Origin: an uncultured Bacteroidota bacterium
Lineage (GTDB): Bacteria > Bacteroidota > Bacteroidia > Chitinophagales > Chitinophagaceae
DNA: 32,752 nt
Assembly: GCA_903904855.1 (NCBI GenBank)
Contig: CAIVEH010000245.1
Coordinates: 1-32,752, forward strand
Reading direction: 5' to 3'
In this document: positions 9,842 to 28,011 of the stretch, one piece after another
Numbering within the stretch: the stretch's first letter is position 1
Layout of the letters: each line of letters begins with the position of its first letter
Program-made: the position numbers and the translations under genes
Notes under the pieces: generated by a model
The model's database searches: none
Told to the model about the DNA's origin: nothing
The model's input: the letters and a program-made list of their open reading frames with translations, nothing else

Positions 9842-11464
9842 TTACTGCTTAACAAACTTCCTCACTTCGCTGTTATTTATTTTGAGGCAGTAAATACCTG
9901 GTTTTAAGTCTGCAACATTTATTTGCACCTGATCACTACCATACTCCCCGGTGAAAACTGGCTGACCTGTGATATTGGAAATGGTAACCATGGAGATTTT
10001 ATTAGCTGAACTAATATTTATTATACCAGTAGCAGGATTAGGGAAAACAGAAAAATGACCTTCATTACTGATTTGCGGAACACCCGCTGTTTCATCAATA
10101 AATTTTATAGTAAAAGCATTTCCGGTACCATTGTAAGGAATTAGCTTTACTGAATCAATATTAGATACCGGTCCACCAAACATGCCGGCAAGATATACAT
10201 TCCCCATACCGTCTGGAGCAATAGAATATCCCACTCCGCCATTATCAGCATTACATCCTTTAAACCACATTTCATCGCCATATGTATTATATTTTGTAAG
10301 GAAGAAACCTTGGGTAGTCATGGTAGAAGCGCCGAAAAAAGTAGAAGAACCATAGTTCCATCCAGTTATATAAACATCGCCGTTTCTGTCTGTTGCTATC
10401 CCATTTGAATTTACACCGGAGGTGCTTTCTATACAATTAGCCCATTGTACAGAACCAGATTGGCTAAATTTGGCCAGATAGCTACTTTGTCTATACGAAG
10501 GGTTATAGAGTATATATACTCCAAATATAAGCATGTGAGATTGGAAATTTCCTGTTACATACAGATTCCCATAAATGTCGGTAACCATGTCTTCCACCTC
10601 AGTCATCTGAGAATGGCCTGTATCTCCAATTATTTTAGCGGATTCAGCTGTACCTGAAGTATTGAATTTCAGAATGAATGACTCGCCATTTGATATTGTT
10701 AATGAAATACTTCCAAAAGCTATAATACCACGATAATAATTTGCTGAGATATATAAATTCCCTGCCTGGTCTACTGCCATTTTAGTTTTAATTCGTAATG
10801 GGTTCCCACTACTGATACCGCTCTGACTTATAGCCCATATATTTGCTCCATTTGTGTCGAATTTGGCTGCAAAAATGTTTGTCTTCGAGCCCGTATTGGT
10901 AAGGTTTGTACTATTGAAAGTCAAACTACTGTCATAGTACCCTGCAATATAAATATGACCTGATGCATCTGTGCCAATACCGGCCACAACACTCTTCCCC
11001 TGGTAGTTTTTTGCCCATATCGTATTGCCATCTTCGTCGAACTTTGCTATATAAATATCATCACCTCCCTGATTGGTTAAAGTGAAGCTGCCAAAGGTGA
11101 GAGATGAACCAGTAAAGTTGCCTGTCAGATACAAGTATCCTGCTTTGTCAATGGTTATTCCATCTACACTGGCGTTATTATCACCTCCGAAATTTTTAGC
11201 CCATAACACTGTGCCAGAGGAATTGTATTTTACCAGATAAATATTCTGGTAATAATTAGTATTTGACAAAATGGTAGTATCAAAATAATCATATGGACTA
11301 TTGAATGTACCTGCTGTATAAATATTGCCGGCAGCATCAGTAATAACTGAATTATTACTAACAGTATTCTGCCCATTTCCCTGCTTTGCCCAGGCACATT
11401 GCTGCGCATAACCAACCGATAAATTCAGTAATAAAATGAATGTTGAAATAATTGTCTTTTTCAT
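9842..11464 (-). CDS. Secreted SBBP-type beta-propeller protein with T9SS sorting domain
   Basis: I chose the ATG at 11464 because MKKTIISTFILLLNLSVGYAQ is a clean signal peptide; an in-frame ATG at 11485 would add seven residues. The 540-residue product contains seven repeats of about 60 residues with the pattern GN.YxxGxF, an F/Y...TLT strand, then A/KF...G...WAK, typical of SBBP beta-propeller repeats, and seven units suggest a seven-bladed propeller. The last 72 residues are a T9SS type A sorting domain (VFPNPATGIINI, ISNITGQPV, GIYCLKI, FVKQ). Secretion to the cell surface is inferred from this domain. It neighbours the NHL propeller gene on the same strand but shares no repeat sequence with it, and the inverted repeat 9763-9819 separates the two. 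Binding target unknown. Confidence 0.93.
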   Translation of the reverse strand: MKKTIISTFILLLNLSVGYAQQCAWAKQGNGQNTVSNNSVITDAAGNIYTAGTFNSPYDYFDTTILSNTNYYQNIYLVKYNSSGTVLWAKNFGGDNNASVDGITIDKAGYLYLTGNFTGSSLTFGSFTLTNQGGDDIYIAKFDEDGNTIWAKNYQGKSVVAGIGTDASGHIYIAGYYDSSLTFNSTNLTNTGSKTNIFAAKFDTNGANIWAISQSGISSGNPLRIKTKMAVDQAGNLYISANYYRGIIAFGSISLTISNGESFILKFNTSGTAESAKIIGDTGHSQMTEVEDMVTDIYGNLYVTGNFQSHMLIFGVYILYNPSYRQSSYLAKFSQSGSVQWANCIESTSGVNSNGIATDRNGDVYITGWNYGSSTFFGASTMTTQGFFLTKYNTYGDEMWFKGCNADNGGVGYSIAPDGMGNVYLAGMFGGPVSNIDSVKLIPYNGTGNAFTIKFIDETAGVPQISNEGHFSVFPNPATGIINISSANKISMVTISNITGQPVFTGEYGSDQVQINVADLKPGIYCLKINNSEVRKFVKQ

Positions 11465-11639
11465 AAGAATAGATTTGGAATTCATGCCATTGGTAACAAT
11501 AACAGAAATTCAGGTGAAGATTTGATTATCACCTTTATAGACGAAAAAAACGCACTGAATCTTGGGTAGGGGAATGAATATTTTTTAGCAATGCCTGAGG
11601 TATACTGATACTTTGTAAACGGGCAGCCATAATCGGTTC

Positions 11640-13229
11640 TTAGTGCATTATTGCAATTTTCTCTTTTTGAATGATCCCAGTTTCATCCTGAATGACAACT
11701 ATATAAAGGCCACCAATCCATTCAGTGGTGTTGATGGAACAGGCAGTCTGAAACACAGTATTGGTGCGGAATACAGTCTTGCCGGTTATATCATAAACCG
11801 ATATTTTAATTTCGGAGTTTAATGGTTTATTGCTTGCAAGGCCAATATAACCTGATGCTGGATTGGGCGAAATGGTGAGACGGTTTTTATCAATCAATTT
11901 GGTAATGCCCACATTGTGCGGTTTCATTGCACTTACAAATGTGCCACAGGTATCCGGGCCTTTTTTATAAAAAGTATAACCCTGCTGTTGCTGTATACCG
12001 GATGAGGCATTGAAGTTGGATTTGCCGGTTAAACCATACCCGACACTATAGGTGTTTGACGTATAGGATGCACGGTACACTGTACCATCGTAACCAAACC
12101 CGGTGGCTTTATAATCCTGATCAATAACGTAGGCGGCTGGGCTGTCGCATAGTCCACTGAAAGGAACATTTTTGGGGAAATAATGAAATAGATATCCTGC
12201 GGTTGATTCTTCGGGCATGGTGAGTAAACTAATAAGGTGACTCGTATCTCCGTAGCCACTGTAGGAGCCGTTTGCCCTTGTGGTATCCCAGATGGTAGTA
12301 GGGTAGGTGGTATTCAGATTTATTGCCATGGTATGCTCAGGTCCCGAATAACCAACTGTTGTTGCGCCAGTAGTTTTATTGGACACTGAATCTAAAGTAT
12401 ACAGGTGGTAATAATAAGGGACAGTGATACTGGTTGCAACAAAATGGTTTTCATAAACATCGCCAACTGCAAAATCATAGATCTGAAATTTTGTTGGGTT
12501 ATAAAAACTAAAGAGTCTGAAAATAGAATTGACCGTATCAGGTGCATTGTCCATACAACCCAGGTCGCAGGTGCCAAGGTTGCCCAGTACCACATCAAGG
12601 TAGTAGTCTATAAAACGGATATTACGGTAGTAGTGAGGTGATACATAGGAAATCGTATCAGGGCGGTGGTAAGGGAATGTATACAAATCAAAGACCTGGA
12701 CAAAGCCATGATTTTTGCTTAGCCATATCTGGAAATTATTTACCGGATCATTTGGGTATGAATAGAAAATGCTGTCGCAGAATATGGATATTTTTTTAAT
12801 CGAATCAAGCACTCCCATTACGGTCATTGTATCTACTGCGGTTACAGTGGCTGTATAATTAAAATGGGAAGTATCGTTATAAAATATCCAACTGGCGCCA
12901 AGGGTTGCCTGTGTTTTAATGATTACAGTATCCCAAAGGTTATCGAACAGATAAGTTCCATCGGCATGACGAATCACTTTGCCCCCCAGCCAGCTACCGC
13001 CCAGGAAACTGTGGGAGGTGCCAATAAGGTAGTTACTGATCCGCTGTGTTTTGTAAGGATAATAAATTACATCGGTACCACTTGTCACTGTTGAGTCTAT
13101 TCTGATACCGCGTACATAGTTTTTACCATTCATGAAATAGTTCTTTACGGCTGGTTGCAGGCAGTTGTAATTCTGGGCTGATAATTGTATACTTAAACAC
13201 AGAACAAACAGAAACAGAAAGCTTTTCAT
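11640..13229 (-). CDS. T9SS-secreted protein of unknown function, tandem paralogue 1
   Basis: This 529-residue protein has a signal peptide (MKSFLFLFVLCLSIQLSAQ), a long N-terminal domain starting NYNCLQPAVKNYFMNG, and a T9SS type A sorting domain at 450-529 (ISPNPASGYIGL, VYDITGKTVF, GLYIVV). It is a clear paralogue of the upstream gene at 13245-14828: both share YVRGIRIDS, VIYYPY, GGSWLG, GFVQVFDLYTFPYHRPDT, a CDLGC/CDLC pair, a PEES-GY segment and CDSP. The 15-bp gap between the two indicates one operon and a tandem duplication. No catalytic motif or named domain was recognised. The Trp- and Tyr-rich, beta-rich composition suits an extracellular binding or structural role, which is only an inference. 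Confidence 0.9.
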   Translation of the reverse strand: MKSFLFLFVLCLSIQLSAQNYNCLQPAVKNYFMNGKNYVRGIRIDSTVTSGTDVIYYPYKTQRISNYLIGTSHSFLGGSWLGGKVIRHADGTYLFDNLWDTVIIKTQATLGASWIFYNDTSHFNYTATVTAVDTMTVMGVLDSIKKISIFCDSIFYSYPNDPVNNFQIWLSKNHGFVQVFDLYTFPYHRPDTISYVSPHYYRNIRFIDYYLDVVLGNLGTCDLGCMDNAPDTVNSIFRLFSFYNPTKFQIYDFAVGDVYENHFVATSITVPYYYHLYTLDSVSNKTTGATTVGYSGPEHTMAINLNTTYPTTIWDTTRANGSYSGYGDTSHLISLLTMPEESTAGYLFHYFPKNVPFSGLCDSPAAYVIDQDYKATGFGYDGTVYRASYTSNTYSVGYGLTGKSNFNASSGIQQQQGYTFYKKGPDTCGTFVSAMKPHNVGITKLIDKNRLTISPNPASGYIGLASNKPLNSEIKISVYDITGKTVFRTNTVFQTACSINTTEWIGGLYIVVIQDETGIIQKEKIAIMH

Positions 13230-13244
13230 GAATAAAGTATTTTG

Positions 13245-14828
13245 TTAATGATTAATGATTATTTTTTTCTTTCCTGAAATACCATAATCGTTTTGACAGA
13301 TTACTATATACAAACCTGATAGCCAGGTTTTAATATCTATAACCAGGTTGTTTGGCGTTAACGGTTCTGACCTGAAAACACAATTGCCAACTTCGTTATA
13401 GACAAAAATAAAAGGATGTGAACTTATTGAGCAGCCTGCCGATACATTGAGGTAATCAGTAGCAGGGTTCGGTGATATTATTATTTCATTTGTTTTTAAG
13501 TTTTCCGGAACAGAGGTATGGTATGGATCAATATTAGCCGGCGAACCACAAGGGATTGAATCTTTAATGATGTAATTGTAGTTTTCAAACTGTTGGGTGC
13601 CATAAGCTATACTTAATACATGAGCAGATTTACCATACCCTATACTATACACTGTGGAGTCGATTGATGGTACAATAGTAATCCCATTATATGCAAAACC
13701 CAGTATCGAAAGAAATGAATAAGACTCAGGGCTATCGCATGAAATATCAGGAAAAATTAAGTGGGGATGGTAATACAGAATATAACCTCCAACACTTTCT
13801 TCAGGCATTCTGAATCTGTCTATGAGGTGGCTGGTATCAGCCGGTATAGAAATTGGGGCAGAGGTATAAGTAGTGTCATGTGATATGGGTGTATGCGAGA
13901 AATCAGTTATGGCATTCATTCGATGCATTGAGCCAGTGTAGGTTACATTGTCGGCTGTTAAGGTTTTTGTCATTATTGAATCAAAGGAGTAGGTATCGGC
14001 CATAACAGAACCGCCGATTGAGTAGGTATTTGAGTGCCATTCGTAAATATCGCCTGCAGCAAAATTATTTAATTCCATTTGTGTTGGGTTATGTAGCTCA
14101 AAAACATGAAATAATGAATTTATGCTATCAGGTGCATTAACGCGGAGGCAAAGATCACAACTTCCCAGATTATTCAATAATGCATCAAGATAGAAATCGA
14201 TTTGGCTTATTAAAAGTCTGTCAGGCGGGTGAAATGAAAATGTATCAGGCCGGTGATATGGGAAAGTGTATAGATCGAATACTTGTACAAAGCCCGAATT
14301 CTTGCTTAGTATTATTTCGAAATTGTTGACCGGATCAGCCGTATAAGGAACACCACCTGTACTATCAGCTTTAATTGTTATTTTCTTGACTGAGTCAATG
14401 ATGCCTGAAATGGACATGGTATCCTCGGCGGTTACTGTAGCAGTGTAATAGATATTGAATGTATCGTTGAAAAAGATCCAAGAATCTCCTGTATGAGCCT
14501 GTGTTTTTATGGTTATTGTATCCCAAATATTATCAAACAGGAAAGTTCCATCAGCTTTTTTGATTATCTTTTTGCCAAGCCAGCTACCACCAGTGGAATC
14601 TAATGTCGGTACACCTGTGATATAATTACTTTTTCTTATGGTTTGGTAAGGATAATAAATCACATCTGAGCCACTTGTTGTTGTAGAATCAATCCGGATT
14701 CCACGAACATAGCCATTGCCATTTATGAAATATTTCTTATCCGAGGGTTGAAAACAATTATAATTCTGAGTATGGGCTGTGTAAGTGCAAAACAAAAGAA
14801 TGATAAGTAGCGATTTTTGCATTGGCAT
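13245..14828 (-). CDS. T9SS-secreted protein of unknown function, tandem paralogue 2
   Basis: This is the promoter-proximal member of the tandem pair. Two starts are possible: ATG at 14828 (MPMQKSLL, 527 residues) or ATG at 14822 (MQKSLLIILLFCTYTAH); both keep the signal peptide, cleaved near HTQ. The N-terminal domain begins NYNCFQPSDKKYFING and follows paralogue 1 throughout, including YVRGIRIDSTTTSGSDVIYY and GFVQVFDLYTFPYHRPDT. The sorting domain at 448-527 has ISPNPATDYLNV, GLYIVIC and a basic end KKKIIINH. Its stop codon lies 15 bp before the start of paralogue 1. The middle regions differ more than the N-terminal parts, suggesting diverged ligand or partner specificity. Function unknown. 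Confidence 0.9.
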   Translation of the reverse strand: MPMQKSLLIILLFCTYTAHTQNYNCFQPSDKKYFINGNGYVRGIRIDSTTTSGSDVIYYPYQTIRKSNYITGVPTLDSTGGSWLGKKIIKKADGTFLFDNIWDTITIKTQAHTGDSWIFFNDTFNIYYTATVTAEDTMSISGIIDSVKKITIKADSTGGVPYTADPVNNFEIILSKNSGFVQVFDLYTFPYHRPDTFSFHPPDRLLISQIDFYLDALLNNLGSCDLCLRVNAPDSINSLFHVFELHNPTQMELNNFAAGDIYEWHSNTYSIGGSVMADTYSFDSIMTKTLTADNVTYTGSMHRMNAITDFSHTPISHDTTYTSAPISIPADTSHLIDRFRMPEESVGGYILYYHPHLIFPDISCDSPESYSFLSILGFAYNGITIVPSIDSTVYSIGYGKSAHVLSIAYGTQQFENYNYIIKDSIPCGSPANIDPYHTSVPENLKTNEIIISPNPATDYLNVSAGCSISSHPFIFVYNEVGNCVFRSEPLTPNNLVIDIKTWLSGLYIVICQNDYGISGKKKIIINH

Positions 14829-15101
14829 TTTTTTATAAAATTAATACTATATGGTGTGGTGTTTTAATTTCAATGGAAGATTATCTTTTCAAGGTTATTT
14901 CATGAAATAAATATGTATTTTGGCATGTCCGGTTTTCTGGTTTGCATTTAAATCCACAAAATGTATGCCAGATTTTCGATCTTGTGAAAATAATATTCAA
15001 ATATATGGCAGCAATTAGTTTTCAGGAATTCAATATTGATTTTTGTATCAAATAGGTAGTTCGCGCAATTTTTTTTAATTTCACGCCCCAAGTTGAATAT
15101 T

Positions 15102-15764
15102 ATGCATCAAATAGTAGATTTATTAAAGACGTTGCTTGCTGACCCTGATAAACTCATGACTTTTATTACCACTCATGGCGGGCTATATGTGGTTATGTTT
15201 ATCATCTTTGCTGAGACAGGATTGTTTGTAGGCTTTTTTCTGCCCGGTGATTCTTTGCTATTTATTACCGGCATTATTATAGCCAATTCACCAGCTCCGT
15301 TTGGCAATGAAATTTTGAATCTTATCTGGTGGATATCTCTTATAAGTGTATCGGCAATAGCTGGCAATATGGTCGGTTATTGGTTTGGGAGAGAATCGGG
15401 CCATTTGTGGTTTGAAAGAAGAGATACCTGGCTATTCAAACAAAAGCACCTGAAGCAGGCGCACGATTTTTATGAAAAAAAGGGGAACCTTGCTATTATA
15501 CTCGGCAGGTTCTTGCCAATAGTGCGGACTTTTGCACCGCTTGTGGCCGGAATAGTGGATATGACCAAGAAGAAATTTATCTCCTTCAGCATCATAGGCG
15601 CATTTGCATGGGTAACCAGTATGGTAATGACCGGCTTTCTGTTGGGACATAATGCATTTGTAAAACATAATATTGATAAAATTGTTATCGTGATTATTTT
15701 GGTAACTACATTACCTGTAATATTTAAAATGATATTTGGTAAGAATAAGACAACTGCCGCCTGA
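15102..15764 (+). CDS. DedA family membrane protein
   Basis: The first ATG is at 15102; a TTG three codons upstream (15093) is less likely. The 220-residue integral membrane protein shows the DedA/SNARE-associated (VTT) pattern: AETGLFVGFFLPGDSLLF (37-54), with the conserved Glu38 and the GFFLPGD re-entrant region, then GRFLPIVRTFAPLVAG (135-150), with the paired Arg residues, followed by two C-terminal membrane segments. DedA proteins are inner-membrane, proton-motive-force-dependent proteins; several are undecaprenyl-phosphate or phospholipid flippases. The MFS transporter gene starts 26 bp downstream, so the two are probably co-transcribed. The upstream neighbour is divergent with a 273-bp gap, in which I see no confident promoter. 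Confidence 0.95.
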   Translation: MHQIVDLLKTLLADPDKLMTFITTHGGLYVVMFIIFAETGLFVGFFLPGDSLLFITGIIIANSPAPFGNEILNLIWWISLISVSAIAGNMVGYWFGRESGHLWFERRDTWLFKQKHLKQAHDFYEKKGNLAIILGRFLPIVRTFAPLVAGIVDMTKKKFISFSIIGAFAWVTSMVMTGFLLGHNAFVKHNIDKIVIVIILVTTLPVIFKMIFGKNKTTAA

Positions 15765-15790
15765 AGTGCCAACCAATAATCCACAATAAT

Positions 15791-17017
15791 ATGGATCAGA
15801 AAAAAGCAATAGGTTTACTGAGCATCCCGGTCATTGTAGCTGCTTTGGGTTATTTTGTGGATATCTATGACCTATTGCTTTTCAGTATCATCAGGGTGAA
15901 AAGCCTAAAGGGAATTGGTCTTACCGATGCATTGTGCGACACTGAGGGCAAATTTATCATTAGTCTTCAGATGTACGGACTACTTCTTGGCGGCATCTTG
16001 TGGGGAGTACTAGGCGATAAGAAAGGAAGGTTAAGCGTACTTTTTGGTAGTATAGTGCTTTATTCACTAGCCAATTTCGCCAATGGTTTTGTACAAACTG
16101 TAAATCAATATGCCCTTGCCCGGTTTATTGCCGGTATAGGTTTGGCTGGAGAGTTAGGGGCAGGTATCACACTTGTTAGTGAATTGGTAACCAAGGAGGC
16201 GAGGGGTAAGGCCACATCAATAGTAGCAGGGGTTGGGCTTACCGGCGCAATTGCTGCCTACTTTGTAGCCCATTCGTTCGACTGGCGTATTTGCTATTAT
16301 GTTGGAGGCGGTCTGGGTTTATGTCTTTTGCTAATGAGAGTAAGTGTATTTGAGTCGGGTATGTTCGAAAATATGCACGAAACCATTCAGAAAGGGAATT
16401 TCTTAATGTTTTTCAACAACAGAAGGCGGTTTAAAACTTATATGCTTGCTATTCTTATTGGTCTACCCACATGGTATGTAATAGGTATATTGATTACTTT
16501 TTCGAAAGAATTTGCCAAAAATTTCGGCTTTCCAGAAAATGATCCGGTAGATGCAGGTAAGGCGGTGATGCTGGCCTATATCACCATTTCGTTTGGCGGC
16601 CTGCTGGCAGGGTTTATGAGCAATTGGCTGAAAAGCCGTAAAAAGGCGCTTTATATATTTTATTCTATAACTATAGTAAGTATTGCCCTGTTTTTCTTTC
16701 AGAAAGGGGGGAACTCCACTACCATGTATATTATATGTATGGCCATGGGATTTGGCACCGGGTTCTGGTCTCTTTTTGTAACAATGGCAGCCGAGCATTT
16801 TGGCACCAACCTCAGGGCTACTGCTGCAACTACAGTTCCCAATATGGTACGTGGATCATTACCAATTTTGATCTTGCTTTTTAATGGCCTTAAACCTGGT
16901 TGGGGTTATATCAATGCAGCAGCTATTACGGGCATTGTGGTAATGGCCATCAGTACTGTTTCTGTTTTTATGACTACCGAAACTTTCGGTAAGGACCTGA
17001 ATTTCATTGAGGAATAG
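15791..17017 (+). CDS. MFS transporter
   Basis: This 408-residue protein has about 12 hydrophobic segments split by a central loop (FNNRRRFKTY), the usual two six-helix halves of the major facilitator superfamily. The loop between helices 2 and 3 carries motif A, GGILWGVLGDKKGR (67-80). Helix 1 contains YFVDIYDLLLF with Asp24 and Asp27, recalling metabolite:proton symporters such as the aromatic-acid or sugar families, and ARFIAGIGLAGELGAG fits the helix 4-5 region. Substrate cannot be assigned. It follows the DedA gene closely, and its stop lies 293 bp before the giant surface protein gene. No convincing terminator is visible after it, so some read-through into the following region cannot be excluded. 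Confidence 0.94.
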   Translation: MDQKKAIGLLSIPVIVAALGYFVDIYDLLLFSIIRVKSLKGIGLTDALCDTEGKFIISLQMYGLLLGGILWGVLGDKKGRLSVLFGSIVLYSLANFANGFVQTVNQYALARFIAGIGLAGELGAGITLVSELVTKEARGKATSIVAGVGLTGAIAAYFVAHSFDWRICYYVGGGLGLCLLLMRVSVFESGMFENMHETIQKGNFLMFFNNRRRFKTYMLAILIGLPTWYVIGILITFSKEFAKNFGFPENDPVDAGKAVMLAYITISFGGLLAGFMSNWLKSRKKALYIFYSITIVSIALFFFQKGGNSTTMYIICMAMGFGTGFWSLFVTMAAEHFGTNLRATAATTVPNMVRGSLPILILLFNGLKPGWGYINAAAITGIVVMAISTVSVFMTTETFGKDLNFIEE

Positions 17018-17310: not shown

Positions 17311-20300
17311 ATGAGATCAGGAAAACTTTACCTACAAATGAGAAATTGCAAGACCTATCTGAATCCAAACCGCCTAGTCAGGACCTTTCTTTTTTTAAGT
17401 ATTTTGTTGGTAAGCACTTCTGCATATGCCTTGCCCGGCCCATCCTTCACAGGTGGTGCATCACAAAGTTTGTCGGTATGCCAGGCTTCCGGTGCCAATT
17501 CAATTAACTCCTTATTGCAGATAACAGATCCGAATGTCGGTTTTACATTAACTTGGACTGTTACATCGGCCCCTACTCATGGAAGTATTGTTTCCGGAGG
17601 TACACAGTTGTCTACCGGAGGAGTTGTAACCCCTTCCGGATTTACTTATTCACCTACGCCCGGATATGGTGGTGCGGATGCCTTTACTGTCCAAATTTCT
17701 GATGGTTTCACCACGGCTTCTACAGTTATTAATGTTACCATTAGCCCAACTACGCTCAACACGGGTACTGCCAGTGTTTGTACCGGATCTACTACACTTT
17801 TAATTAATTCAACTGGTGGAGGTACATGGAGCAGCGCCACCCCTTCTGTAGCAAATGTTGGTACCGGCGGTATTGTAACAGGTTATTCTACAGGTACTGC
17901 TACAATATCTTATACTGTGGCTGGTTGTGCAGCTACAACTGCTGTTACTGTTAATCAAACCCCAACCGGTATCAGTGGTACCTTCAGTGCGTGCGTGGGC
18001 GGTTCAACTACTTTAACCAATGGCTATGCCGGTGGTACATGGACTAGTAGTGCTCCAGCTGTTGCTACAATTAATGCAGCATCAGGTCTGGTAAATGCTC
18101 TTACTCCTGGTACAACTACAATTACTTATAGTTTACCCGGCGGATGTACCGCTACTGCAACCTTTACTGTAAATGCAAATCCTGTAGCAATAGGCGGCCC
18201 ATCAAGCGTATGTATCGGACAAACTATAACTTCAACTGATGCAACATCGGGTGGGGTATGGAGCAGCAGCGCACCTACAATTGCCTCAATCTGGTCGGGA
18301 TCAGGGCTGATAACCGGATTGACAGCAGGTACTACCAATATAACTTATACTCTTGGAACAGGGTGCTATACCAGTAGCCCGGTAGTGGTAAATCCATTAC
18401 CAGCTTCTTTTGCAGGTACAAACTCGGTTTGCGTTGGTGTAGGTACAACTTTAGTCACGGCTACAGGTGGCGGTACATGGAGCAGCAGCTCACCTGTTGC
18501 AACTGTGACTGGTGTAGGTGGAACCGGCACTGTGACCGGGGTATCAGCCGGGGTATTGACAATTACTTATACTATTACTGCAACCGGATGTTATCTTACT
18601 ACACCTTTTACGGTTAATCCAAATCCGGCTGCTATTGCCGGACCTTCAGCTGTATGTGCCGGTTTAACAATCAGTCTGACCAATGCTACTACTGGTGGTG
18701 TGTGGACCAGCAGTACCGGAGCGGCGACGGTAGGTGCAGGAACAGGTGTTGTAACAGGTGTATCATCAGGAGCTCCTAACTTAATATATACATTACCTAC
18801 CGGATGCTTTGCAACAACAGCTGTGGTTGTGAACGCTACACCAGCTACCATAGATGGTGGTCCGATTCCAACAATATGTCCCGGAACTACTACTACCCTG
18901 ACCGATGCTACAGGAGCAGGCACCTGGGTGAGCAATAATACTGCAGTTGCAACTGTTAATGCAGCTACAGGTTTAGCTACAGGTGTTGCGGCTGGTAATT
19001 CTACTATTACGTTTACTTTAACGGCTACAGGATGTATAACAACATCAGTACTTACAGTTAATCCTAATCCGGCAGCAATTACCGGTACAGCAGTTGTTTG
19101 CCAGGGATTAAATACTACCCTGGCTTCAGGCTCGGGTGGTGGTACCTGGACCAGTCTGTCTCCCGCAAATGGTTCGGTTGTTTCAACAACAGGAGTAGTA
19201 ACCGGAGTTACCGGCAGTACTACAGCTACCATTGTTTATACCTTACCAACGGGATGCCTGACTTCAGTTATTGTTACGGTAAATCCCTTACCTGCATCAA
19301 TCGTTGGCTCTAACAATGTTTGTGTTGGTCTGACGACGCCTCTTACTGATGGTACAGGAGTTTCAACCTGGACAAGCAGTAATACTGCTATGGCTACAGT
19401 AGGTGCCGGTACAGGTATCGTTACCGGTGTTTCTGCAGGATCTATCAATATTACTTTTACCAATCCGGCAAATGGATGTATAGCCCTGTTGCCGTTTACC
19501 GTGAATCCAACACCGGCAGCAATAACTGGATCAAATAATGTATGCGTTGGATCTAACAGTGCACTTTCTGATGCTACTGGCGGTGGTACATGGAGTGTTG
19601 TGGCCGGAACAGGTGCAGCTACTATTTCCATTTCTGGTGTTGTTTCAGGAATTACTGCAGGAACCGTTAGTATAACCTATACTTTACCGGCAGGTTGCGT
19701 TGCAGCCATGCCATTTACGGTTAATCCTACTCCTCCAACACCTTCAGGTTCTTCTACTGTTTGTACAGGATTGACAACTATTTTGACTGATGGAACTGCC
19801 GGCGGTACCTGGACCAGTAGCAGCCCTACAAAGGCATCCGTATCCGGCGCTACTATAACCGGAGTATCAGCAGGTACCGCTAATATTACTTATACTACTT
19901 CGCCAGGAAGTTGTTTTGCAATTTGGCCAATGACAGTTAATCCTACTCCATCAGCAAATACAGGTACTGCTGTTGTTTGTATGGGTTCTAATACTACTCT
20001 TGCCAATAGCACAGCAGGTGGTACATGGAGCAGTGTTACACCAACGGTAGGGACTGTTTCTACAACTGGTGTTGTATCAGGTATTGCATCTGGAAATACT
20101 GTAATTTCTTATACCTTGTCAACAGGTTGTTTTGCAAATACTACGGTTACAGTAAATACTACTCCAACGGCAATAACCGGAGGCGCATCTACAGTATGTA
20201 CCGGAGCTACTCTTGCCTTAACAAGTTCTGGAGGTATTACCTGGAGCAGCAGCAATACTTCATTGGCTACTGTAAATTCAAGTGGTGTTGTAACCGGAGT

Positions 20301-23300
20301 TGCTACAGGTACTCCAACAATCTCCTATACTATAGGATCCTGCTTTGTTACATACCCGATTACTGTTAACCAGACTCCTCCAAATATTGTGGGCAGCGGG
20401 CTTCTTTGTACCGGACTTACAACTACACTTACAGATGGAATAGGCGGTGGTACATGGGCAAGCAGTAATCCGGCAGCGGCAACCATTAATGCTGCCACAG
20501 GAGCTATTACAGCAGTAGCCGTTGGAAATTCAAATATCAATTATACATTACCTGCAGGTTGTACAACACTTCTGGTGGTTACAGTAAATATTCAGCCAGG
20601 GACAATCAGTGGCAGCTCTACTTTATGTACCGGGGCTACAACTACCTTAATTGATGGAACACCTGGTGGTACCTGGACCAGCAGTAATCCGGCTGTTGCG
20701 ACAATCAATTCCGGTTTAGGTCTGGTAACAGGTGTTACTGCAGGAAATGTTACCATGACTTACACTATGACAGGAAATTGTACTGTTACTTTCCCTATGA
20801 CCATTAACCTTACTCCGGCAGCTATTACCGGTACAGCTGTGGTATGCGTGGGCAGCACTACTTTATTAAGTGATGCTACTGTAGGTGGCACATGGAGCAG
20901 CAGTAATACCGCAATGGCAACAATCGGTTCGGCAACCGGAATAATGACAGGCGTTAGTGCAGGCAACCCCACAATAGTTTATACCTATCCCGGTGGTTGT
21001 ACAGCTACTATTACTGCAACAGTTAATCCTCAGCCAAATGTTTATGCTGTTACCGGTGGCGGAGCTTATTGCTCAGGCGGCGCAGGAGTAGCGATAGGGC
21101 TGAGTGGGGGGGATCCCGCGATCAACTATCAATTATTTTTAGGTACTGCAACTTCAGGCGGTGTTGCTACTTTCACTGGAACTCCTGTGACTTTCGGTAA
21201 CAGGACTACTGCAGGTACTTATACTGCAGTAGCTACTGTTGTTGCTACAGGCTGTTCAATAAGTATGTCGGGCAGTACTTCAATAACTATTAATCCAAAT
21301 CCGTTTGCATTTGCTGTTACTGGTGGTGGCAGCTATTGTTCAGGCACCTCATCTACTGTACACGTTGGCCTAAGCGGTTCAGCTGGATTCGGAGCAATTT
21401 ATACATTATTATTAGGTGGAGTTTCAACAGGTATTACAACAGCAAGTACCGGAGCAATCCTTGATTTCGGTATTCAATCTACACCGGGTACATATACGGT
21501 ATCGGGTGTGTATACTGCAACAGGATGTACCACTACAATGACTGGCAGTGCAATTATAGCTGTTAATCCGTTGCCAACTGTTTATACAGTTACTACACCA
21601 GGTGGTACAAGTTATTGTGCTGGTGGAGCAGGATTGCATATTGGCCTTAATTCATCAGATGTTGGGTACAGCTATCAGTTATACCTTGGGGGTTCTACAT
21701 CCGGAACTGCATTGGCAGGTACCGGTGGTTCTCTTGACTTTGGTTTGAGAACTACTGGTGGTACTTATACTGTCCTGGCTACAAATAACACAACCGGTTG
21801 CAGTGTACTTATGAGTGGTGCACCGGTAATTACGGTTAACCCTTTACCAACTTTATTCTCAGTTACTGCACCAGGCGGAACAGGTTATTGCGCTGGTGGT
21901 ACAGGAGTATCTATTGTACTGAGCGGGTCAACAGTAGGTGTTAATTACCAGCTTTATTTAAATGGTGTTTCTACTGGTGGATCTGGATTATTTGCAGGCA
22001 CAGGCACAGCTTTAACTATGTCTTCAACTGCCACAGCAGGAGTTTATACTGTAGTAGCTACAAATGGTACAACAGGCTGCACTCAATTGATGAGTGGCAG
22101 CGTTACCGTTGTATCGAATGCACTACCAACAGCCTATAATGTTACAGGTGGCGGATCTTATTGTTCTGGCGGTGCAGGTGTACATATATTTTTAAACAAT
22201 TCGCAGATTGGTGTTTCTTACCAGTTATATAATACTTTCGGAATAGTTCCCGGGGCCCTTGTTACAGGTACCGGAGGAATACTTGATTTGGGTGCACAGA
22301 CTGTTGCCAGTACTTATACAGTTGTTGCTACTAATATTACTACCGGTTGTACCAACAATATGACCGGCAGCCAGATAATAGTTATTAATGCATTGCCCAA
22401 TGTATATCCAATGTCGGCCAGCGGGGCTTTCTGCTTTGGTGGCGCCGGATGGGATGTTCAGTTAGGTGGTTCAGATCCTGGTATCAGTTACCAGCTTTAT
22501 GTCGGTGCAACTGTAGTTGGCGCTCCAATAATCGGAGGTGGCGGTGGTGGGCCAGTTGATTATGGCAATCAGTTTTTGGGAGGTACCTATACTGTTAAGG
22601 CCACCAATACTGGTAACGGTTGTTCCGTTTTCATGACTGGCAGTACTATTGTAACAGTGAATCCGTTACCAACATTATTTAATGTAAATGGAGGTGGCAG
22701 TTTTTGTGCCGGAGGTACAGGGGTTAATGTTGGTTTAAGTGGTTCACAGGCAACAGTCAACTACCAGTTATATAATGGTGCAGGACTAGTTGGCGGTACC
22801 ACACCCGGTTCTGGTACTGGAATTGGATTTGGTCTGCAGACTGCTGCAGGCTCTTATTATGTAATTGCAACCAGCGGTGCAGGTTGTATCAATAATATGA
22901 CTGGTTCAGTAATCGTTAACACCAATCCTTTACCTAGTGCTTATGGTGTCACTGGTGGTGCAGCCTATTGCGCAGGTGGTTCTGGTACGCATATAGGTCT
23001 TGCCAGTTCAGATATTGGCATCAATTACCAGTTATATATTGGTGGCGTAACTTCAGGTACTGCTTTGGCAGGTACTGGTGGTGCTCTTGATTTTGGTTTA
23101 TTGGCTCCTCTGGGAGTTTATAGTGTTTCTGCTACGAATCCTGTTACCGGTTGTCAGAATGGTATGACCGGAACAGTTACAGTAGCCACTAATCCTCTGC
23201 CAACTGTTTATACAGTAAGTGGTGGCGGCGCTTATTGCGCAGGCGGAACAGGAACAGTAGTTAATTTAGGTAATTCCGATCCTACTGCCAGTTATCAATT

Positions 23301-26300
23301 ATACAGGGGTACTATCGCGGTTGGTCTGGCTGTTGCAGGTTCTGCTATTCCAGGTACTTTAAGTATGGGATCTCAAACTGTAGCTGGTACTTATACCGTA
23401 GTTGCAAGAAATCCGATTACCGGTTGTACTTCAAACATGACAGGCAGTGCAACTGTTTCTATCACTCCATTGCCTAATGTATATACAGTTACTGGCGGCG
23501 GTGGTTATTGTCCGGGCGGTTCTGGTGTTAATGTTGGCCTGAGCGGATCAGATGCTACAGTAAGCTATACTATATACAGAGGTGTTGTTGCAGTTCCTCC
23601 GGCTGTTATTGGTTCAGGAACTCCGTTTAATTTCGGTTTAGAAACTAATGGTAATTATACTGTTATTGCTACCAATCCGGTTACTACATGTTCTGTAAAT
23701 ATGTTAAGCAGCGCAACAGTAGTTTTAAATACGGTTCCCGGTCTATTTACTATAAGTGCAGGTGGTCATTATTGTGCAGGTGGAACAGGGGTTAATATTT
23801 CGCTTGGCGGCTCGGCTGTGGGCGTAAATTATCAGTTAATGCTGGGTGGGGTTTCTGTTGGCATGCCTGTTGTGGGTACATCCTTGCCTGTAGGATTTGG
23901 TTTGCAAACTACAGCAGGTACTTATACAGTTGTTGCAACCAACGCAATTACCGGTTGCAGTTCTACAATGACAGGATCAGCTTCAGTGGTTATTGATCCA
24001 CTCCCTGCTGCACAGTTTGTAACAGGCGGTGGTAGTTATTGCCCTGGTGGTAGTGGAGTTAATGTTGGCCTTTTATTCTCAGCTTTAGGTACAAATTACA
24101 TGTTATATAATGGCAGTACGCCTGTATCCGGATCAATAGCCGGTATTGGTGCTGCGCTTCCATTTGGATTACAGACAACACTTGGTGTTTATACTGTAAA
24201 GGCAACTTTACCAACCGGTTGTACAAGTACTATGGCCGGCAGCGCCACTGTTGGAATTTATGCATTACCCACACCTTATAATGTATCAGGTGGTGGTAGT
24301 TATTGTGCCGGTGGTACTGGCCTGCCGGTATCACTTACCGGATCAGACATCAATACCAATTACCAGTTATTTAATGATGATACTGCTATTGGTGGCATAC
24401 ATTCAGGTACAGGCGGTGCAATTAACTTCGGTTTGCAGACAGCGGGTGGCGCTTATATGGTTGTTGCTACAAGCACAACAACGACCTGCGTTGATACTAT
24501 GTATGATACAGCCTCAATAATTGTTAATTCATTACCGATTTCTCAGACTGTGACTGGCGGCGGAAGTTACTGCCCTGGTGGCACTGGAGTTAATATTTCT
24601 CTTGGTGGTTCTGAACCAGGTGTGAACTACCAATTATATAATGGTACTTCTACAGTTGGCAGTCCTGTACCCGGTACAGGATTGGGTCTCAATTTCGGTT
24701 TATTTACCAGTACCGGTATTTATACTATCAAGGCTACCAATACTGCAACTTTATGTGCAAGTAATATGGCTGGCAATGATACCATCAGTTTGTATCCGTT
24801 ACCTGCAATTTATAATGTAACCGGTGGCGGTGGTTATTGCGCTGGCGGTGCTGGTTCGGTATTAGGTTTAAATCATTCTCAGACCGGAGTTGTTTACCAG
24901 TTATATCGTGGCACTACTATGGTGGGCTTACCAGATACGGGTACCGGCGCTGCAATCACTTTTGGATCGCAGACAGTAGCAGGAATCTATACAGTGGTGG
25001 CTACCAACCTGGCTTCAGGATGTACCAATAATATGTCGGGAAGTGCAACTGTAGTTGTTAATACACTGCCTTACACTTATAATATGACAGGCGGTGGTGG
25101 TTATTGTGCAGGTGGTACCGGAGTTCATATTGGTCTTAGTGGTTCAGCTATCGGAATCAATTACCAGTTAATGAGTGGTGGTTCTTCAGTTGGCAGTATC
25201 GTATCAGGTACTGGCTTACCACTTGATTTAAACTGGCATACTATATCTGGTACTTATAAGGTTCTTGCAACTAACAGTTCAACCGGCTGTCAGAGTTATA
25301 TGATGGATAGCGTGGCAGTAATTATTAATCCTCTTCCAACCTTGTATACTGTATCTGGCAGCAGTTCAAGCTACTGTACAGGTGGCACAGGTGTTACTGT
25401 TTATCTCAGCCATTCTGACTCTGGTGTAATTTATCAGTTGTACAGAGGTACAACCCCAATCGGCGTTTCAATTGCCGGCACAGGTTCTACCGCTCTGGAT
25501 TTTGGAGCTCAAACAGTTGCAGGTACTTATACCATTTTAGCTACCAATGCGTCTACCGGTTGTAAACAAACTATGACTGGCAGCGCTTCATTTACTATTA
25601 CGGCGTTACCTCCTGCTTATTCAGTTATTGGAGGTGGCAGTTATTGTGCAGGTGGTACCGGTGTTACTGTAGGATTGGCTGGTTCTAATGTTGGAGTTAG
25701 TTATCAATTGTTCAAAAGCAGTTTGCCGGTAGGCACACCTGTTTATGGCACAGGTGCACCTGTAACATTGGGTACTGAAACAACTCCTGGCGTTTATTCA
25801 GTAGTTGCTACAAGTACAACAACAGGTTGCAGCAACAATATGGCAGGTAGTGCTACAGTTAGCATTAATCCGCTTCCTGATGTATTTACAGTAAGTGGAG
25901 GAGGAGCATATTGTACAGGTAGTACAGGTGTAAATATTTCATTAAGTGGGTCAGTTACCGGTATTAATTACCAGTTGTCGCTCTCTACTTTGCCTTATGG
26001 AGGTGTTAAGCCAGGAACCGGCTTGCCATTGTCATTCGGACCAATGACTACAGCAGGTACTTATACAATTACTGCTTTGAATACTTCTACAGGTTGTGTA
26101 AATAATATGGGTGGTTCAGCAACAGTTGTTGTTAATCCGCTTCCTATGGCATTCCCTGTAACCGGCGGCGGTAATTATTGCCCTGGTGGCGCCGGTGTTT
26201 CTGTAGGACTTTACGGTTCAGTACCTGGTGTTAAGTACCAGTTGTTTAATGGAACCTCAGTTTCAGGCAGTCCGATGTACGGTACAGGCCTGCCAATTAA

Positions 26301-27774
26301 TTTCGGTCTGAGAACTGCATCAGGAAGTTATACAGTAGTAGCAACCGATACAGCAACTGGTTGCACAATGAATATGACAGGTGTTGTTAGTGTTGGTACA
26401 AATCCGTTACCAGTTGTTTATAATGTTACAGGTGGTGGCAGCTATTGTGCTGGTGGTACCGGAGTAAATATCGGGCTTGATGGTTCGAACACAGGAATTA
26501 CTTATCAGCTGATTGCAGCCGGCGGTTCAACAGTTGGTGTAGCTTATGGCACTGGTTCGCTTGTGAATTTCGGTAACCAGACTACTCTTACAGCCTATAC
26601 AGTATTGGCAACAAATGCCATTACTACATGTAGTGTAAATATGGCAGGAAGTGTATCTGTTTCAGTAAATCCGCTGGTTACACCAACGGTTGCGATCTCA
26701 ACATCAAATGGCGATACAGCATGTGCTGGCCTTGCAGCTACTTTCACTGCTTCAATCACAGACGGTGGAACTGCTCCGGTTTATTTGTGGAAGGTAAATG
26801 GTTCACCTGCCGGAACAGACAGTACTATCAGTTATGTTCCATCTACAGGCGATGTGGTTACTGTTATGCTTACCAGCAATGCCGTATGTGCAACTCCAGA
26901 TACAGCAAGCAGCACAATGACTATGTACATTATTCCTCAGGAAATACCTGATGTATCAATAGCCTCCGCTTCTGGTAATGTGGTTTGCCGTGGCACAACT
27001 GTAGTTTATACTGCGACTCCGGTTAATGGTGGCTATGCTCCTTCTTATACCTGGAAAAAGAATGGTACAGTAATTACTGGTGCAAGTAGTGCGGTATTCA
27101 GTTATGCACCTGGTAACGGCGATATTATTTCCTGCAACCTTTCCAGCAATTATCAGTGCAGGCTTGCCAACACTGTAATGAGTAATACTATTTCTATGGA
27201 AGTAGATACGCCGATAACACCTCAGGTGACAATTACTGTTAGCCCACTTAATTATATTGCAACAGGTGAGTTGGTAACATTTACAGCCGCAATTGGTAAT
27301 GCTGTTGTAGCGCCAGCTTATCAGTGGTATGTAAATGGTCATGGTGTTCCGGGAGCGACATATGCTACCTATTCAGATAACACATTTACCAACGGACAGA
27401 CTATTAAATGTATCGTAACATCTGGTGGCGGATGCGGAGGAACTACAGGTACATCCAATTCTATTTTGATGCATGTATCCAATGTAGGTGTTCAACCGGT
27501 AACCGCAGGCGTTGCAGATATCCAGTTGGTACCTAATCCGAATAAAGGTGCATTTGTAATAAAGGGCACAATGGGATCCGCAATTGACCAGGAAGTGAAT
27601 GTAGAAATTACCAACATGCTTGGTCAGGTAGTATTTACCAACAAGACAACAGCTATGAACGGTAATATTGATGAGAAGATACAACTCAATACTATACCTG
27701 CAAATGGAATGTATATTGTGAACCTGAGAACAAATTCAGAAAACAAAGTGTTCCATATGGTTATTGAGCAATAA
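17311..27774 (+). CDS. Giant repeat-rich T9SS surface protein (adhesin-like)
   Basis: The product is 3,487 residues. A signal peptide lies within residues 1-40 (core RTFLFLSILLVSTSAYA); an internal ATG at 17338 is an alternative start. Residues about 41-146 form an Ig-like domain (SPTPGYGGADAFTVQISDG). Residues 147-1240 are 15 Big_2-like repeats of about 73 residues, 1241-3121 are 21 repeats of about 90 residues, 3122-3391 are three PKD/Ig-like domains, and 3392-3487 is a T9SS type A sorting domain (LVPNPNKGAFVI, ITNMLGQVVF, GMYIVNL). The two arrays contain two Cys per unit, suggesting one disulfide per domain after export. No enzyme domain is visible, so a long fibrous adhesin or cell-surface filament is the natural inference, by analogy with very large T9SS adhesins such as SprB. 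The open frame runs unbroken for 10.4 kb and ends at a strong terminator. Confidence 0.95.
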   Translation: MRSGKLYLQMRNCKTYLNPNRLVRTFLFLSILLVSTSAYALPGPSFTGGASQSLSVCQASGANSINSLLQITDPNVGFTLTWTVTSAPTHGSIVSGGTQLSTGGVVTPSGFTYSPTPGYGGADAFTVQISDGFTTASTVINVTISPTTLNTGTASVCTGSTTLLINSTGGGTWSSATPSVANVGTGGIVTGYSTGTATISYTVAGCAATTAVTVNQTPTGISGTFSACVGGSTTLTNGYAGGTWTSSAPAVATINAASGLVNALTPGTTTITYSLPGGCTATATFTVNANPVAIGGPSSVCIGQTITSTDATSGGVWSSSAPTIASIWSGSGLITGLTAGTTNITYTLGTGCYTSSPVVVNPLPASFAGTNSVCVGVGTTLVTATGGGTWSSSSPVATVTGVGGTGTVTGVSAGVLTITYTITATGCYLTTPFTVNPNPAAIAGPSAVCAGLTISLTNATTGGVWTSSTGAATVGAGTGVVTGVSSGAPNLIYTLPTGCFATTAVVVNATPATIDGGPIPTICPGTTTTLTDATGAGTWVSNNTAVATVNAATGLATGVAAGNSTITFTLTATGCITTSVLTVNPNPAAITGTAVVCQGLNTTLASGSGGGTWTSLSPANGSVVSTTGVVTGVTGSTTATIVYTLPTGCLTSVIVTVNPLPASIVGSNNVCVGLTTPLTDGTGVSTWTSSNTAMATVGAGTGIVTGVSAGSINITFTNPANGCIALLPFTVNPTPAAITGSNNVCVGSNSALSDATGGGTWSVVAGTGAATISISGVVSGITAGTVSITYTLPAGCVAAMPFTVNPTPPTPSGSSTVCTGLTTILTDGTAGGTWTSSSPTKASVSGATITGVSAGTANITYTTSPGSCFAIWPMTVNPTPSANTGTAVVCMGSNTTLANSTAGGTWSSVTPTVGTVSTTGVVSGIASGNTVISYTLSTGCFANTTVTVNTTPTAITGGASTVCTGATLALTSSGGITWSSSNTSLATVNSSGVVTGVATGTPTISYTIGSCFVTYPITVNQTPPNIVGSGLLCTGLTTTLTDGIGGGTWASSNPAAATINAATGAITAVAVGNSNINYTLPAGCTTLLVVTVNIQPGTISGSSTLCTGATTTLIDGTPGGTWTSSNPAVATINSGLGLVTGVTAGNVTMTYTMTGNCTVTFPMTINLTPAAITGTAVVCVGSTTLLSDATVGGTWSSSNTAMATIGSATGIMTGVSAGNPTIVYTYPGGCTATITATVNPQPNVYAVTGGGAYCSGGAGVAIGLSGGDPAINYQLFLGTATSGGVATFTGTPVTFGNRTTAGTYTAVATVVATGCSISMSGSTSITINPNPFAFAVTGGGSYCSGTSSTVHVGLSGSAGFGAIYTLLLGGVSTGITTASTGAILDFGIQSTPGTYTVSGVYTATGCTTTMTGSAIIAVNPLPTVYTVTTPGGTSYCAGGAGLHIGLNSSDVGYSYQLYLGGSTSGTALAGTGGSLDFGLRTTGGTYTVLATNNTTGCSVLMSGAPVITVNPLPTLFSVTAPGGTGYCAGGTGVSIVLSGSTVGVNYQLYLNGVSTGGSGLFAGTGTALTMSSTATAGVYTVVATNGTTGCTQLMSGSVTVVSNALPTAYNVTGGGSYCSGGAGVHIFLNNSQIGVSYQLYNTFGIVPGALVTGTGGILDLGAQTVASTYTVVATNITTGCTNNMTGSQIIVINALPNVYPMSASGAFCFGGAGWDVQLGGSDPGISYQLYVGATVVGAPIIGGGGGGPVDYGNQFLGGTYTVKATNTGNGCSVFMTGSTIVTVNPLPTLFNVNGGGSFCAGGTGVNVGLSGSQATVNYQLYNGAGLVGGTTPGSGTGIGFGLQTAAGSYYVIATSGAGCINNMTGSVIVNTNPLPSAYGVTGGAAYCAGGSGTHIGLASSDIGINYQLYIGGVTSGTALAGTGGALDFGLLAPLGVYSVSATNPVTGCQNGMTGTVTVATNPLPTVYTVSGGGAYCAGGTGTVVNLGNSDPTASYQLYRGTIAVGLAVAGSAIPGTLSMGSQTVAGTYTVVARNPITGCTSNMTGSATVSITPLPNVYTVTGGGGYCPGGSGVNVGLSGSDATVSYTIYRGVVAVPPAVIGSGTPFNFGLETNGNYTVIATNPVTTCSVNMLSSATVVLNTVPGLFTISAGGHYCAGGTGVNISLGGSAVGVNYQLMLGGVSVGMPVVGTSLPVGFGLQTTAGTYTVVATNAITGCSSTMTGSASVVIDPLPAAQFVTGGGSYCPGGSGVNVGLLFSALGTNYMLYNGSTPVSGSIAGIGAALPFGLQTTLGVYTVKATLPTGCTSTMAGSATVGIYALPTPYNVSGGGSYCAGGTGLPVSLTGSDINTNYQLFNDDTAIGGIHSGTGGAINFGLQTAGGAYMVVATSTTTTCVDTMYDTASIIVNSLPISQTVTGGGSYCPGGTGVNISLGGSEPGVNYQLYNGTSTVGSPVPGTGLGLNFGLFTSTGIYTIKATNTATLCASNMAGNDTISLYPLPAIYNVTGGGGYCAGGAGSVLGLNHSQTGVVYQLYRGTTMVGLPDTGTGAAITFGSQTVAGIYTVVATNLASGCTNNMSGSATVVVNTLPYTYNMTGGGGYCAGGTGVHIGLSGSAIGINYQLMSGGSSVGSIVSGTGLPLDLNWHTISGTYKVLATNSSTGCQSYMMDSVAVIINPLPTLYTVSGSSSSYCTGGTGVTVYLSHSDSGVIYQLYRGTTPIGVSIAGTGSTALDFGAQTVAGTYTILATNASTGCKQTMTGSASFTITALPPAYSVIGGGSYCAGGTGVTVGLAGSNVGVSYQLFKSSLPVGTPVYGTGAPVTLGTETTPGVYSVVATSTTTGCSNNMAGSATVSINPLPDVFTVSGGGAYCTGSTGVNISLSGSVTGINYQLSLSTLPYGGVKPGTGLPLSFGPMTTAGTYTITALNTSTGCVNNMGGSATVVVNPLPMAFPVTGGGNYCPGGAGVSVGLYGSVPGVKYQLFNGTSVSGSPMYGTGLPINFGLRTASGSYTVVATDTATGCTMNMTGVVSVGTNPLPVVYNVTGGGSYCAGGTGVNIGLDGSNTGITYQLIAAGGSTVGVAYGTGSLVNFGNQTTLTAYTVLATNAITTCSVNMAGSVSVSVNPLVTPTVAISTSNGDTACAGLAATFTASITDGGTAPVYLWKVNGSPAGTDSTISYVPSTGDVVTVMLTSNAVCATPDTASSTMTMYIIPQEIPDVSIASASGNVVCRGTTVVYTATPVNGGYAPSYTWKKNGTVITGASSAVFSYAPGNGDIISCNLSSNYQCRLANTVMSNTISMEVDTPITPQVTITVSPLNYIATGELVTFTAAIGNAVVAPAYQWYVNGHGVPGATYATYSDNTFTNGQTIKCIVTSGGGCGGTTGTSNSILMHVSNVGVQPVTAGVADIQLVPNPNKGAFVIKGTMGSAIDQEVNVEITNMLGQVVFTNKTTAMNGNIDEKIQLNTIPANGMYIVNLRTNSENKVFHMVIEQ
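17749..21030 (+). repeat. 15 tandem Big_2-like (bacterial Ig-like) repeats
   Basis: I count 15 units of about 73 residues (about 219 bases). The pattern is P..I.G...VC.G....L.......GTW.SS.P..A....TG.VTGV.AG...I.YTLP.GC......VNP. Every unit has one Trp (GTW or a variant) and two Cys. Across about 1,094 residues I find one Lys and no Arg, Glu or His. The units are diverged at DNA level, so this is not a simple recent amplification. Confidence 0.9.
21031..26673 (+). repeat. 21 tandem repeats of about 90 residues, family not recognised
   Basis: I count 21 units averaging 89.6 residues (about 269 bases). Shared positions are a leading LP.VY.V.GGG, then YCAGGTGV..GLSGS..GV.YQLY, a variable loop, GTG..L.FG.QT..GTYTV.ATN..TGC, and .NM.GSA.V..NP. 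Two Cys (YC and GC) are kept in all 21 units. Repeats of this look occur in environmental Bacteroidota surface proteins, but I know no named domain. Start and end phases were chosen at the LP/QP dipeptide. Confidence 0.9.
26674..27480 (+). repeat. Three PKD/Ig-like domains before the sorting domain
   Basis: Three units of 90 residues share (T/D)V.I....G....G....TA.........Y.WKVNG......... followed by a strand with DxVT or GQTIKC and a Cys. They resemble the Ig-like spacer domains that often precede T9SS sorting domains and may act as a stalk near the attachment point. Confidence 0.8.
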
Positions 27775-27796
27775 GCTTAATTCATTTCCTTTACAA

Positions 27797-27834
27797 AGTT
27801 GTGCCACACTTTAAAAGTGTGGCACAACTATTTT
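27797..27834 (+). terminator. Rho-independent terminator of the giant gene
   Basis: AGTTGTGCCACACT (27797-27810) pairs perfectly over 14 bp with AGTGTGGCACAACT (27816-27829) around a five-base loop, followed by ATTTT. It starts 22 bases after the stop codon. The rest of the gap to 28011 shows no gene. Confidence 0.9.
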
Positions 27835-28011
27835 AGATCAGGTAGCTGAGGTGTTTCACCATTATTATTTACTTTCTTTAAAATCGAAGATAACCCGAAT
27901 CATAAGTAGAATACATCCTGGACCCGAAATCGGAAAGTCGTCAACTTTTTATCTATAAATGGTTATTGATAAACCTAGAGTATTTTTATGATGGGATGGA
28001 AAACAGTGAAC

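Follow-up and report, generated by a model that had tools for sequence, protein, structure and literature searches.

An uninterrupted frame on the forward strand of contig CAIVEH010000245.1, analysed here over its full length of 32,752 nucleotides (the window), encodes a giant protein of 3,487 amino acids, in which a long rod of immunoglobulin-like (Ig-like) units is kept unit for unit between species and the N-terminal domain, or head, is exchanged at the same locus. The contig (C245), all of which is covered by the window, comes from the 5.6-Mb draft genome (271 contigs) of a freshwater bacterium, and the protein belongs to a family of giant rods that occurs throughout the genus (Flavipsychrobacter-type Chitinophagaceae) and whose members share their last 364 amino acids. 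Giant surface proteins of Bacteroidota are many and have been little studied, and tandem-repeat adhesins are usually regarded as fast-changing. The account that we consider probable is that of a surface fibre exported by the type IX secretion system (T9SS), with a fixed stalk and an exchangeable binding tip, and with adhesion as its use.

The preliminary description of this DNA had read the frame as an N-terminal Ig-like domain, 15 Big_2-like units, 21 units of another family, three PKD/Ig-like domains and a sorting domain, and the frame, the spacing of its cysteines and the Pfam and TIGR profiles all agree with that order (Table 1). The sorting domain is of type A and lies above the cut-offs of two profiles (PF18962, 33.0 bits against 27; TIGR04183, 33.5 against 23), and its conservation in the family argues that it is sound. 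In array A, the first of the two arrays of units, Big_2 (PF02368) matches 13 stretches with 161 bits in the Pfam search, and sequence profile and fold both identify the units as Big_2. Matches of Ig_7 to nine stretches of the protein stay under the cut-off (23.9 against 27.3), as do those of the three domains before the sorting domain when the window protein is taken alone (Ig_3, 28.5 against 30; PKD_3, 16.6 against 26.3); together with the sorting domain, these three align as one module of 364 amino acids in 20 family members. The units of array A also match the Pfam profile for Ig-like domain 16 of NUP210, a domain of a nuclear-pore protein (90 bits, eight stretches).

Cysteine pairs alone mark the layout of the rod, with 15 pairs 48–53 residues apart in array A followed by 21 pairs 60–63 residues apart in array B. 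Cut at these invariant pairs, array A yields 15 units of 70–75 amino acids and array B 21 units of 88–93, and two cysteines are found in all 36. The mean protein identity between units is 47% in array A and 48% in array B, which, together with the two cysteines of each unit, excludes chance as the source of the arrays. Between-unit DNA identity is about 55%, reaching 64% in the best pair, with no trend with distance along the array, and Tandem Repeats Finder called zero arrays within the gene; it is therefore unlikely that short-read assembly has collapsed repeats, and a second species carries the identical count of 15 and 21 units. The arrays had been called homogeneous at the outset, which holds for their fold but not for their sequence. 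The junction of the two arrays was also modelled (Table 1). Array A has 10 charged residues among 1,097 and array B 46 among 1,881, against 12.4–15.2% for four further T9SS cargo genes on this contig; the median charged share across 56 rods of the family is 2.5%. Exactly two cysteines occur in 1,071 of 1,154 A units and 1,404 of 1,440 B units of the family set, and the pair in each unit probably forms a disulfide bond.

The conservation of the rod is clearest at locus L090 of genome G046, where a protein of 3,632 amino acids again has 15 A and 21 B units. The best match of every window unit (15/15 and 21/21) is the L090 unit of the same number, and the mean identity along this diagonal is 0.77 in array A and 0.79 in array B. 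At locus L091 of genome G049 (3,688 amino acids; 16 A and 21 B units), 18 of 21 B units are in register, as are 12 of 15 A units after a shift of one, which places the additional A unit on the distal side. In the tree of C-terminal modules, the window groups with L090 (support 100/99) and L091 (100/100). This tree has 105 rows, one protein of fewer than 350 amino acids being excluded; its backbone is unresolved, with 27 of 102 inner branches open and the bootstrap unsettled. Neighbouring genes are conserved on both sides in G046 and on the upstream side only in G049, and no synteny was seen in the stretches taken from G047, G011 and G024. The ratio of non-synonymous to synonymous substitution (dN/dS) in the rod, relative to L090, is 0.114 (dS 1.23), compared with 0.024–0.076 for three neighbouring genes, these ratios being rough at dS values of 1.2–3.0. 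On these estimates the rod is under purifying selection, far below the neutral value and less constrained than the three neighbours. The integrity of the gene in close relatives is borne out by four of them (L090, L091, L074 and L124), in which the frame is intact with 21 B and 15 or 16 A units.

The head is where the window and L090 part. Their DNA aligns at 73% identity from the end of the upstream major facilitator superfamily (MFS) gene to codon 8, and again behind the head over 10,102 columns at 74.5% (window 17773–27835). The 437 bases between these stretches in the window and the corresponding 854 in L090 give no alignment, and a comparison of the whole loci agrees. The window head is of the Big_9 type, and that of L090 is an ALK_LTK_GRD domain (69.4 bits against a cut-off of 24.5). 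Since the heads of L091 and L074 are also Big_9, this type is probably the older one and the L090 head the replacement. L091 bears about 140 further residues ahead of its Big_9 domain, for which (L091 29–570) no Pfam match and only one relative among the frames compared were found, and in L124 the truncated end of the locus shows FG-GAP repeats.

The same question can be put to the family at large. Among 20 distinct pairs of nearest rods (rod identity of at least 55%), five differ in tip class, one has an added stretch and 14 agree in class. Heads that are more alike than their rods, as is expected if heads move between rods, were seen among the pairs listed of 153 in L121/L133 (79 vs. 60%), L111/L133 (72 vs. 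52%) and L111/L121 (70 vs. 51%); in these three proteins the likeness may be a sign of recent head transfer or of stronger constraint on the head. Classification of 63 heads gave ALK_LTK_GRD in 25, GEVED in 15, Ig_7 in seven, Big_9 in six, PKD in four and P-domain in three, and two of 64 heads were too short for tip classification after trimming. The glycine-rich domain (GRD) of the L090 head is identified by sequence profile and by fold, and its predicted fold resembles the ligand-binding regions of ALK and LTK as well as the tips of phage fibres (Pam3 fibre, Bxb1 tail tip). A profile built from the 25 heads reaches ALK/LTK in the PDB, and the L090 head sequence taken singly gives zero PDB matches. 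At locus L060 of the window's own genome (C258, positions 2504–16103), three family genes in tandem combine short A stretches with dissimilar heads: a Kelch domain, an M4 metallopeptidase and a third without assigned class.

Proteins with the C-terminal module are numerous. In the window's own genome 65 matches are listed, with 29 loci above 100 bits; a match occurs in 39 of 40 genomes searched, the own genome included, and 24 genomes of the same genus have 21 to 52 each (50 candidates scored per genome). Matches at E 1e-50 or better number 7, 14, 24, 8, 23 and 22 in six genomes of the genus, with all candidates scored in five and the best 150 of 182 in the sixth. When the module was used in a protein search, 347 of the 2,299 candidates scored were relatives of Bacteroidota type, many giant in size, so that long Ig rods as such are common. 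The relatives whose loci were taken carry the labels Flavipsychrobacter, Taibaiella and metagenome-assembled genomes of Chitinophagaceae, Sphingobacteriales and Bacteroidetes, and the genus name used here comes from these labels. The longest frame seen, of 11,279 amino acids, contains a family member at G044:C10:111839-112915. The loci taken were 20 own and 20 relative loci, 77 named loci, eight neighbourhood stretches and a later, independent set of 20 loci that had played no part in forming the ideas. The first set was picked by likeness to the window C-terminus, and its counts accordingly favour the window's subfamily. Tree and head analyses used 106 proteins, which lacked 11 first-set proteins whose module score was too low inside very long chains. 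Adding these and the new loci gave 132 proteins after removal of identical copies, 95 of them complete at the 5′ end (median 2,730 amino acids, maximum 5,681); duplicates were removed by identity of the last 150 residues only, and near-identical copies may remain. That the rod is constant, the head variable and the gene one of dozens had been overlooked in the preliminary description.

The larger set also bears on how the arrays are inherited. Between distant B arrays of 20 units, identity with unit averages removed peaks at offset 0 (155 distant pairs, 90% positive), and between arrays of 21 and 20 units it peaks at an offset of exactly one unit, much of the positional signal coming from the first, last and 16th units. 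In most arrays the GG that precedes YC has been lost from unit 16 of 20, which corresponds to B17 in the window; the unit with this loss is the fifth from the cell-proximal end in 30 of 50 arrays (19 to 37 units), and GG is lost in only 24 of 1,036 other units. Four complete genes of one architecture class have an identical base, B2-A11-B20, with 22, 22, 20 and 11 units in the distal A array. The shared unit positions, with a constant base and a variable distal A array, point to inheritance of whole arrays from one ancestral array, with changes mainly at the distal end.

Two stricter rules were rejected. A marker unit always fifth from the base is incompatible with its presence there in 30 of 50 arrays only, and in the independent later loci L192 and L193 it stands at position 9. 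B arrays always of 20 or 21 units are contradicted by longest B runs of 0 to 33 among the 95 complete proteins (20 in 25 proteins, 21 in seven, 12 in nine, 1 in 22, 0 in eight and 2 in eight; 3, 5, 7, 9, 11, 19, 25, 26 or 33 in the remainder and none of 13–18). At L094 (positions 2528–11230, genome G047) an in-frame stop divides a family gene into A4-B14 and B7 with the C-terminal module, 14 and 7 again making 21 B units.

The working of such a protein can be outlined from its parts. Residues 1–44 are hydrophobic and read by eye as a Sec signal peptide, and the T9SS translocon SprA is present in the genome (TIGR04189, 2408.1 bits against 200; open frame of 2,632 amino acids). The C-terminal module would export the protein and anchor it on the cell surface. 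Because the sorting domain is C-terminal, array B is taken as the base of the rod and the head as its tip; the initial proposal of a T9SS surface rod whose 21-unit array lies closer to the cell agrees with the type A sorting domain, SprA and a variation in length that is mainly N-terminal. The mechanically distinct segments proposed along with it are not supported. Arrays B and A may then form a thin, nearly uncharged, disulfide-pinned stalk of about 40 domains, with a reach of very roughly 150 nm if 4 nm per domain is assumed. The N-terminal domain at the far tip would bind a partner. The stalk is conserved unit by unit with its length altered mainly at the distal end, and the tip would be replaced when a cassette lying N-terminally, from the gene start up to array A, is exchanged, which would give the same stalk a new partner. 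We infer export, orientation, reach, tip binding and a role in adhesion from this architecture. A broader proposal, which we put forward tentatively and with some doubt, is that tips are interchangeable throughout the genus: a length-fixed, charge-free Ig chassis would carry heads, many of them with the ALK/LTK fold, that are swapped by cassette to retarget the cell, in the manner of phage fibres, and the many bacterial heads would make the ALK/LTK module an old microbial adhesion domain.

Several points weigh against the fixed stalk with an exchangeable binding tip. Register is weaker at L074/L108 of genome G011 (L074, 3,718 amino acids; 15 A and 21 B units), with six of 21 B and nine of 15 A units, and at L124 (G047:C135, 4,661 amino acids; 16 A and 21 B units), with four of 21 and eight of 15. 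Within the stretches taken of G011, these remoter relatives lie off the window's locus. The constant length of the arrays may reflect a mere lack of recombination between diverged units, not selection. Retention of the tip class is the rule in nearest-rod pairs, and of the five pairs with different tips, L096/L106 may be a case of divergence (the L106 head is glycine-rich, with 37 bits on a purpose-built head profile and no Pfam match), and another consists of two of the L060 genes, tandem paralogs of one genome. The window's own Big_9 head, a plain Ig/cadherin-like domain and putative binder, is the weakest link, and no experiment on any family member was found.

A structural coat or spacer fibre, on which the heads would be interchangeable because they are of no consequence, is unlikely. 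It would suit the nearly charge-free rods, the dozens of copies per genome, the many Ig-like domains and the S-layer proteins among the fold matches, but the heads are folded, conserved and of recurring extracellular classes rather than degenerate sequence, most nearest-rod pairs share a head class, and three pairs show higher conservation in the head than in the rod.

It is quite unlikely that the protein is a close functional relative of GhpA of Aureispira sp. CCB-QB1, with several chains joined in a hooked filament that seizes prey at the outset of predation (ixotrophy). GhpA (5,898 amino acids; PDB 9flp and others) is the best solved match both by sequence profile and by Foldseek E-value, and like the window protein it is a giant T9SS-secreted stalk of Ig-like domains. 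It was reached with a profile of the A/B junction, a PDB search with the single window protein giving only a Big_2 glucanase, LigB, a Big_2 domain and intimin. The two proteins are distant, at 17–22% identity, and GhpA is described in the source consulted in part as assembling into heptamers (PMC11205867). The sheath family VipB (PF05943) of the type VI secretion system was found in none of 35 genomes of the genus, in a search in which only E. coli of 14 controls was positive and a divergent sheath may be missed. Because this family does not appear in the 35 genomes and assembly cannot be read from sequence, the window rod cannot be called a grappling hook.

A gliding adhesin carried along the surface, as SprB is, had also been suggested, and we judge it very unlikely. 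The T9SS is present, as is a GldJ-like frame in two pieces (269 and 64 bits), but the GldJ match is under the cut-off of 458.2 and the same search gives matches in two control genomes. SprB of Flavobacterium johnsoniae, likewise a very large T9SS-exported surface adhesin, has a type B sorting domain (PF13585) and uses the SprF route, according to the part of the source consulted (PMC10202324); the window protein has a type A domain and gives no match to CHU_C at E values up to 1, and no member of the PorP/SprF family, the usual neighbour of type B cargo, is among the 20 neighbouring frames scanned (Pfam, E 0.001). The suggestion of SprB-like gliding thus goes unsupported; a role like that of RemA, a minor gliding adhesin, would still be compatible with the data. 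An assembly chimera of family members as the source of the head difference is highly improbable: the draft state of both genomes and the size of the family speak for it, but a 171-base query across the window head/rod junction turned up no long exact repeat genome-wide, its best match elsewhere covering 57 bases at 81%, the G046 neighbours are syntenic upstream and downstream, the window's head class sits on the same rod type in L091 and L074, and the protein database has two member sequences on four contigs for the window protein, which may include this contig.

Table 1. Position of the giant rod gene and its parts in the window, with the basis of each assignment (pLDDT, predicted local distance difference test; pTM, predicted template modelling score).
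Feature	Position	Strand	Basis
Whole gene, giant T9SS type A rod protein, 3,487 amino acids	17311..27774	+	Frame and Pfam/TIGR profiles
Upstream stretch (MFS gene end, intergenic, first 8 codons), alike to L090 with 73% DNA identity	16980..17335	+	blastn
Hydrophobic N-terminal stretch, residues 1–44, putative Sec signal peptide	17311..17442	+	By eye from translation
Exchanged stretch, unalignable in DNA to 854 bases at the same place in L090	17336..17772	+	
Head, Big_9-type Ig/cadherin-like domain, residues 45–145	17443..17745	+	PF17963, 27.3 against 23.6
Array A, 15 Big_2 units, residues 146–1241, two Cys each	17746..21033	+	
Array B, 21 Ig-like units, residues 1242–3123, two Cys each	21034..26679	+	
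Junction A14-A15-B1-B2, modelled stretch	20572..21546	+	pLDDT 91.9, pTM 0.69
Unit B17, fifth from proximal end of array B; SS replaces the usual GG before YC	25339..25608	+	
C-terminal 364-amino-acid module common to the family, three Ig/PKD-like domains and sorting domain	26680..27771	+	
T9SS type A sorting domain, residues 3408–3484	27532..27762	+	PF18962, TIGR04183

Four consecutive T9SS cargo genes, each with a type A sorting domain, lie on the reverse strand at window 8326–14828; one has an NHL propeller, one an SBBP propeller, and two of 527–529 amino acids are without other domains. G046 retains this row minus one gene. Genome-wide, scoring 150 of 306 candidates gave at least 150 matches to the type A sorting domain, and CHU_C (type B) gave 35, with 32 lying above the cut-off, which amounts to a very large T9SS repertoire.

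The register of 36 units between species, with the tip replaced at the same locus, is a natural experiment on head binding, and the proposal that the head sets the partner can be tested with two recombinant domains. It also places the ALK/LTK ligand-binding fold, common to the tips of phage fibres, at the end of T9SS stalks. The likeness in fold to the ALK/LTK glycine-rich domain and phage fibre tips extends to the L090 head and about two fifths of family heads, and the window's own head differs in being Big_9.

A search of open-licence PubMed Central literature found no description of a T9SS rod that is retained unit by unit and whose head has been exchanged in place. Surface proteins of the T9SS organism P. 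gingivalis, e.g., Kgp, are diversified by domain rearrangement and allelic exchange; these are enzymes with adhesin domains and other proteins, and a giant rod that stays constant under a changing N-terminal head does not figure in the portion of that account consulted (PMC5266723). The giant adhesin of Mobiluncus mulieris has 51 Ig-like domains, is covalently pinned and bears an N-terminal adhesion region; it belongs to a Gram-positive organism and is cross-linked by ester and isopeptide bonds, and head exchange is not described in the sections of the source used here (PMC10619420). A parallel in tip exchange is offered by the mosaic adhesive trimer (MAT) fibres of Bdellovibrio, whose genome, as far as the consulted part of the source goes, holds a repertoire of such fibres with varied tips, one pair being 75% identical in the fibre with the tip exchanged (PMC10769870). 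MAT fibres are trimeric β-fibres with C-terminal tips, whereas the window protein has Ig-like units, an N-terminal head and a C-terminal T9SS sorting domain; the conserved fibre and exchanged tip that they share with the window and L090 are a likeness of working, not of descent.
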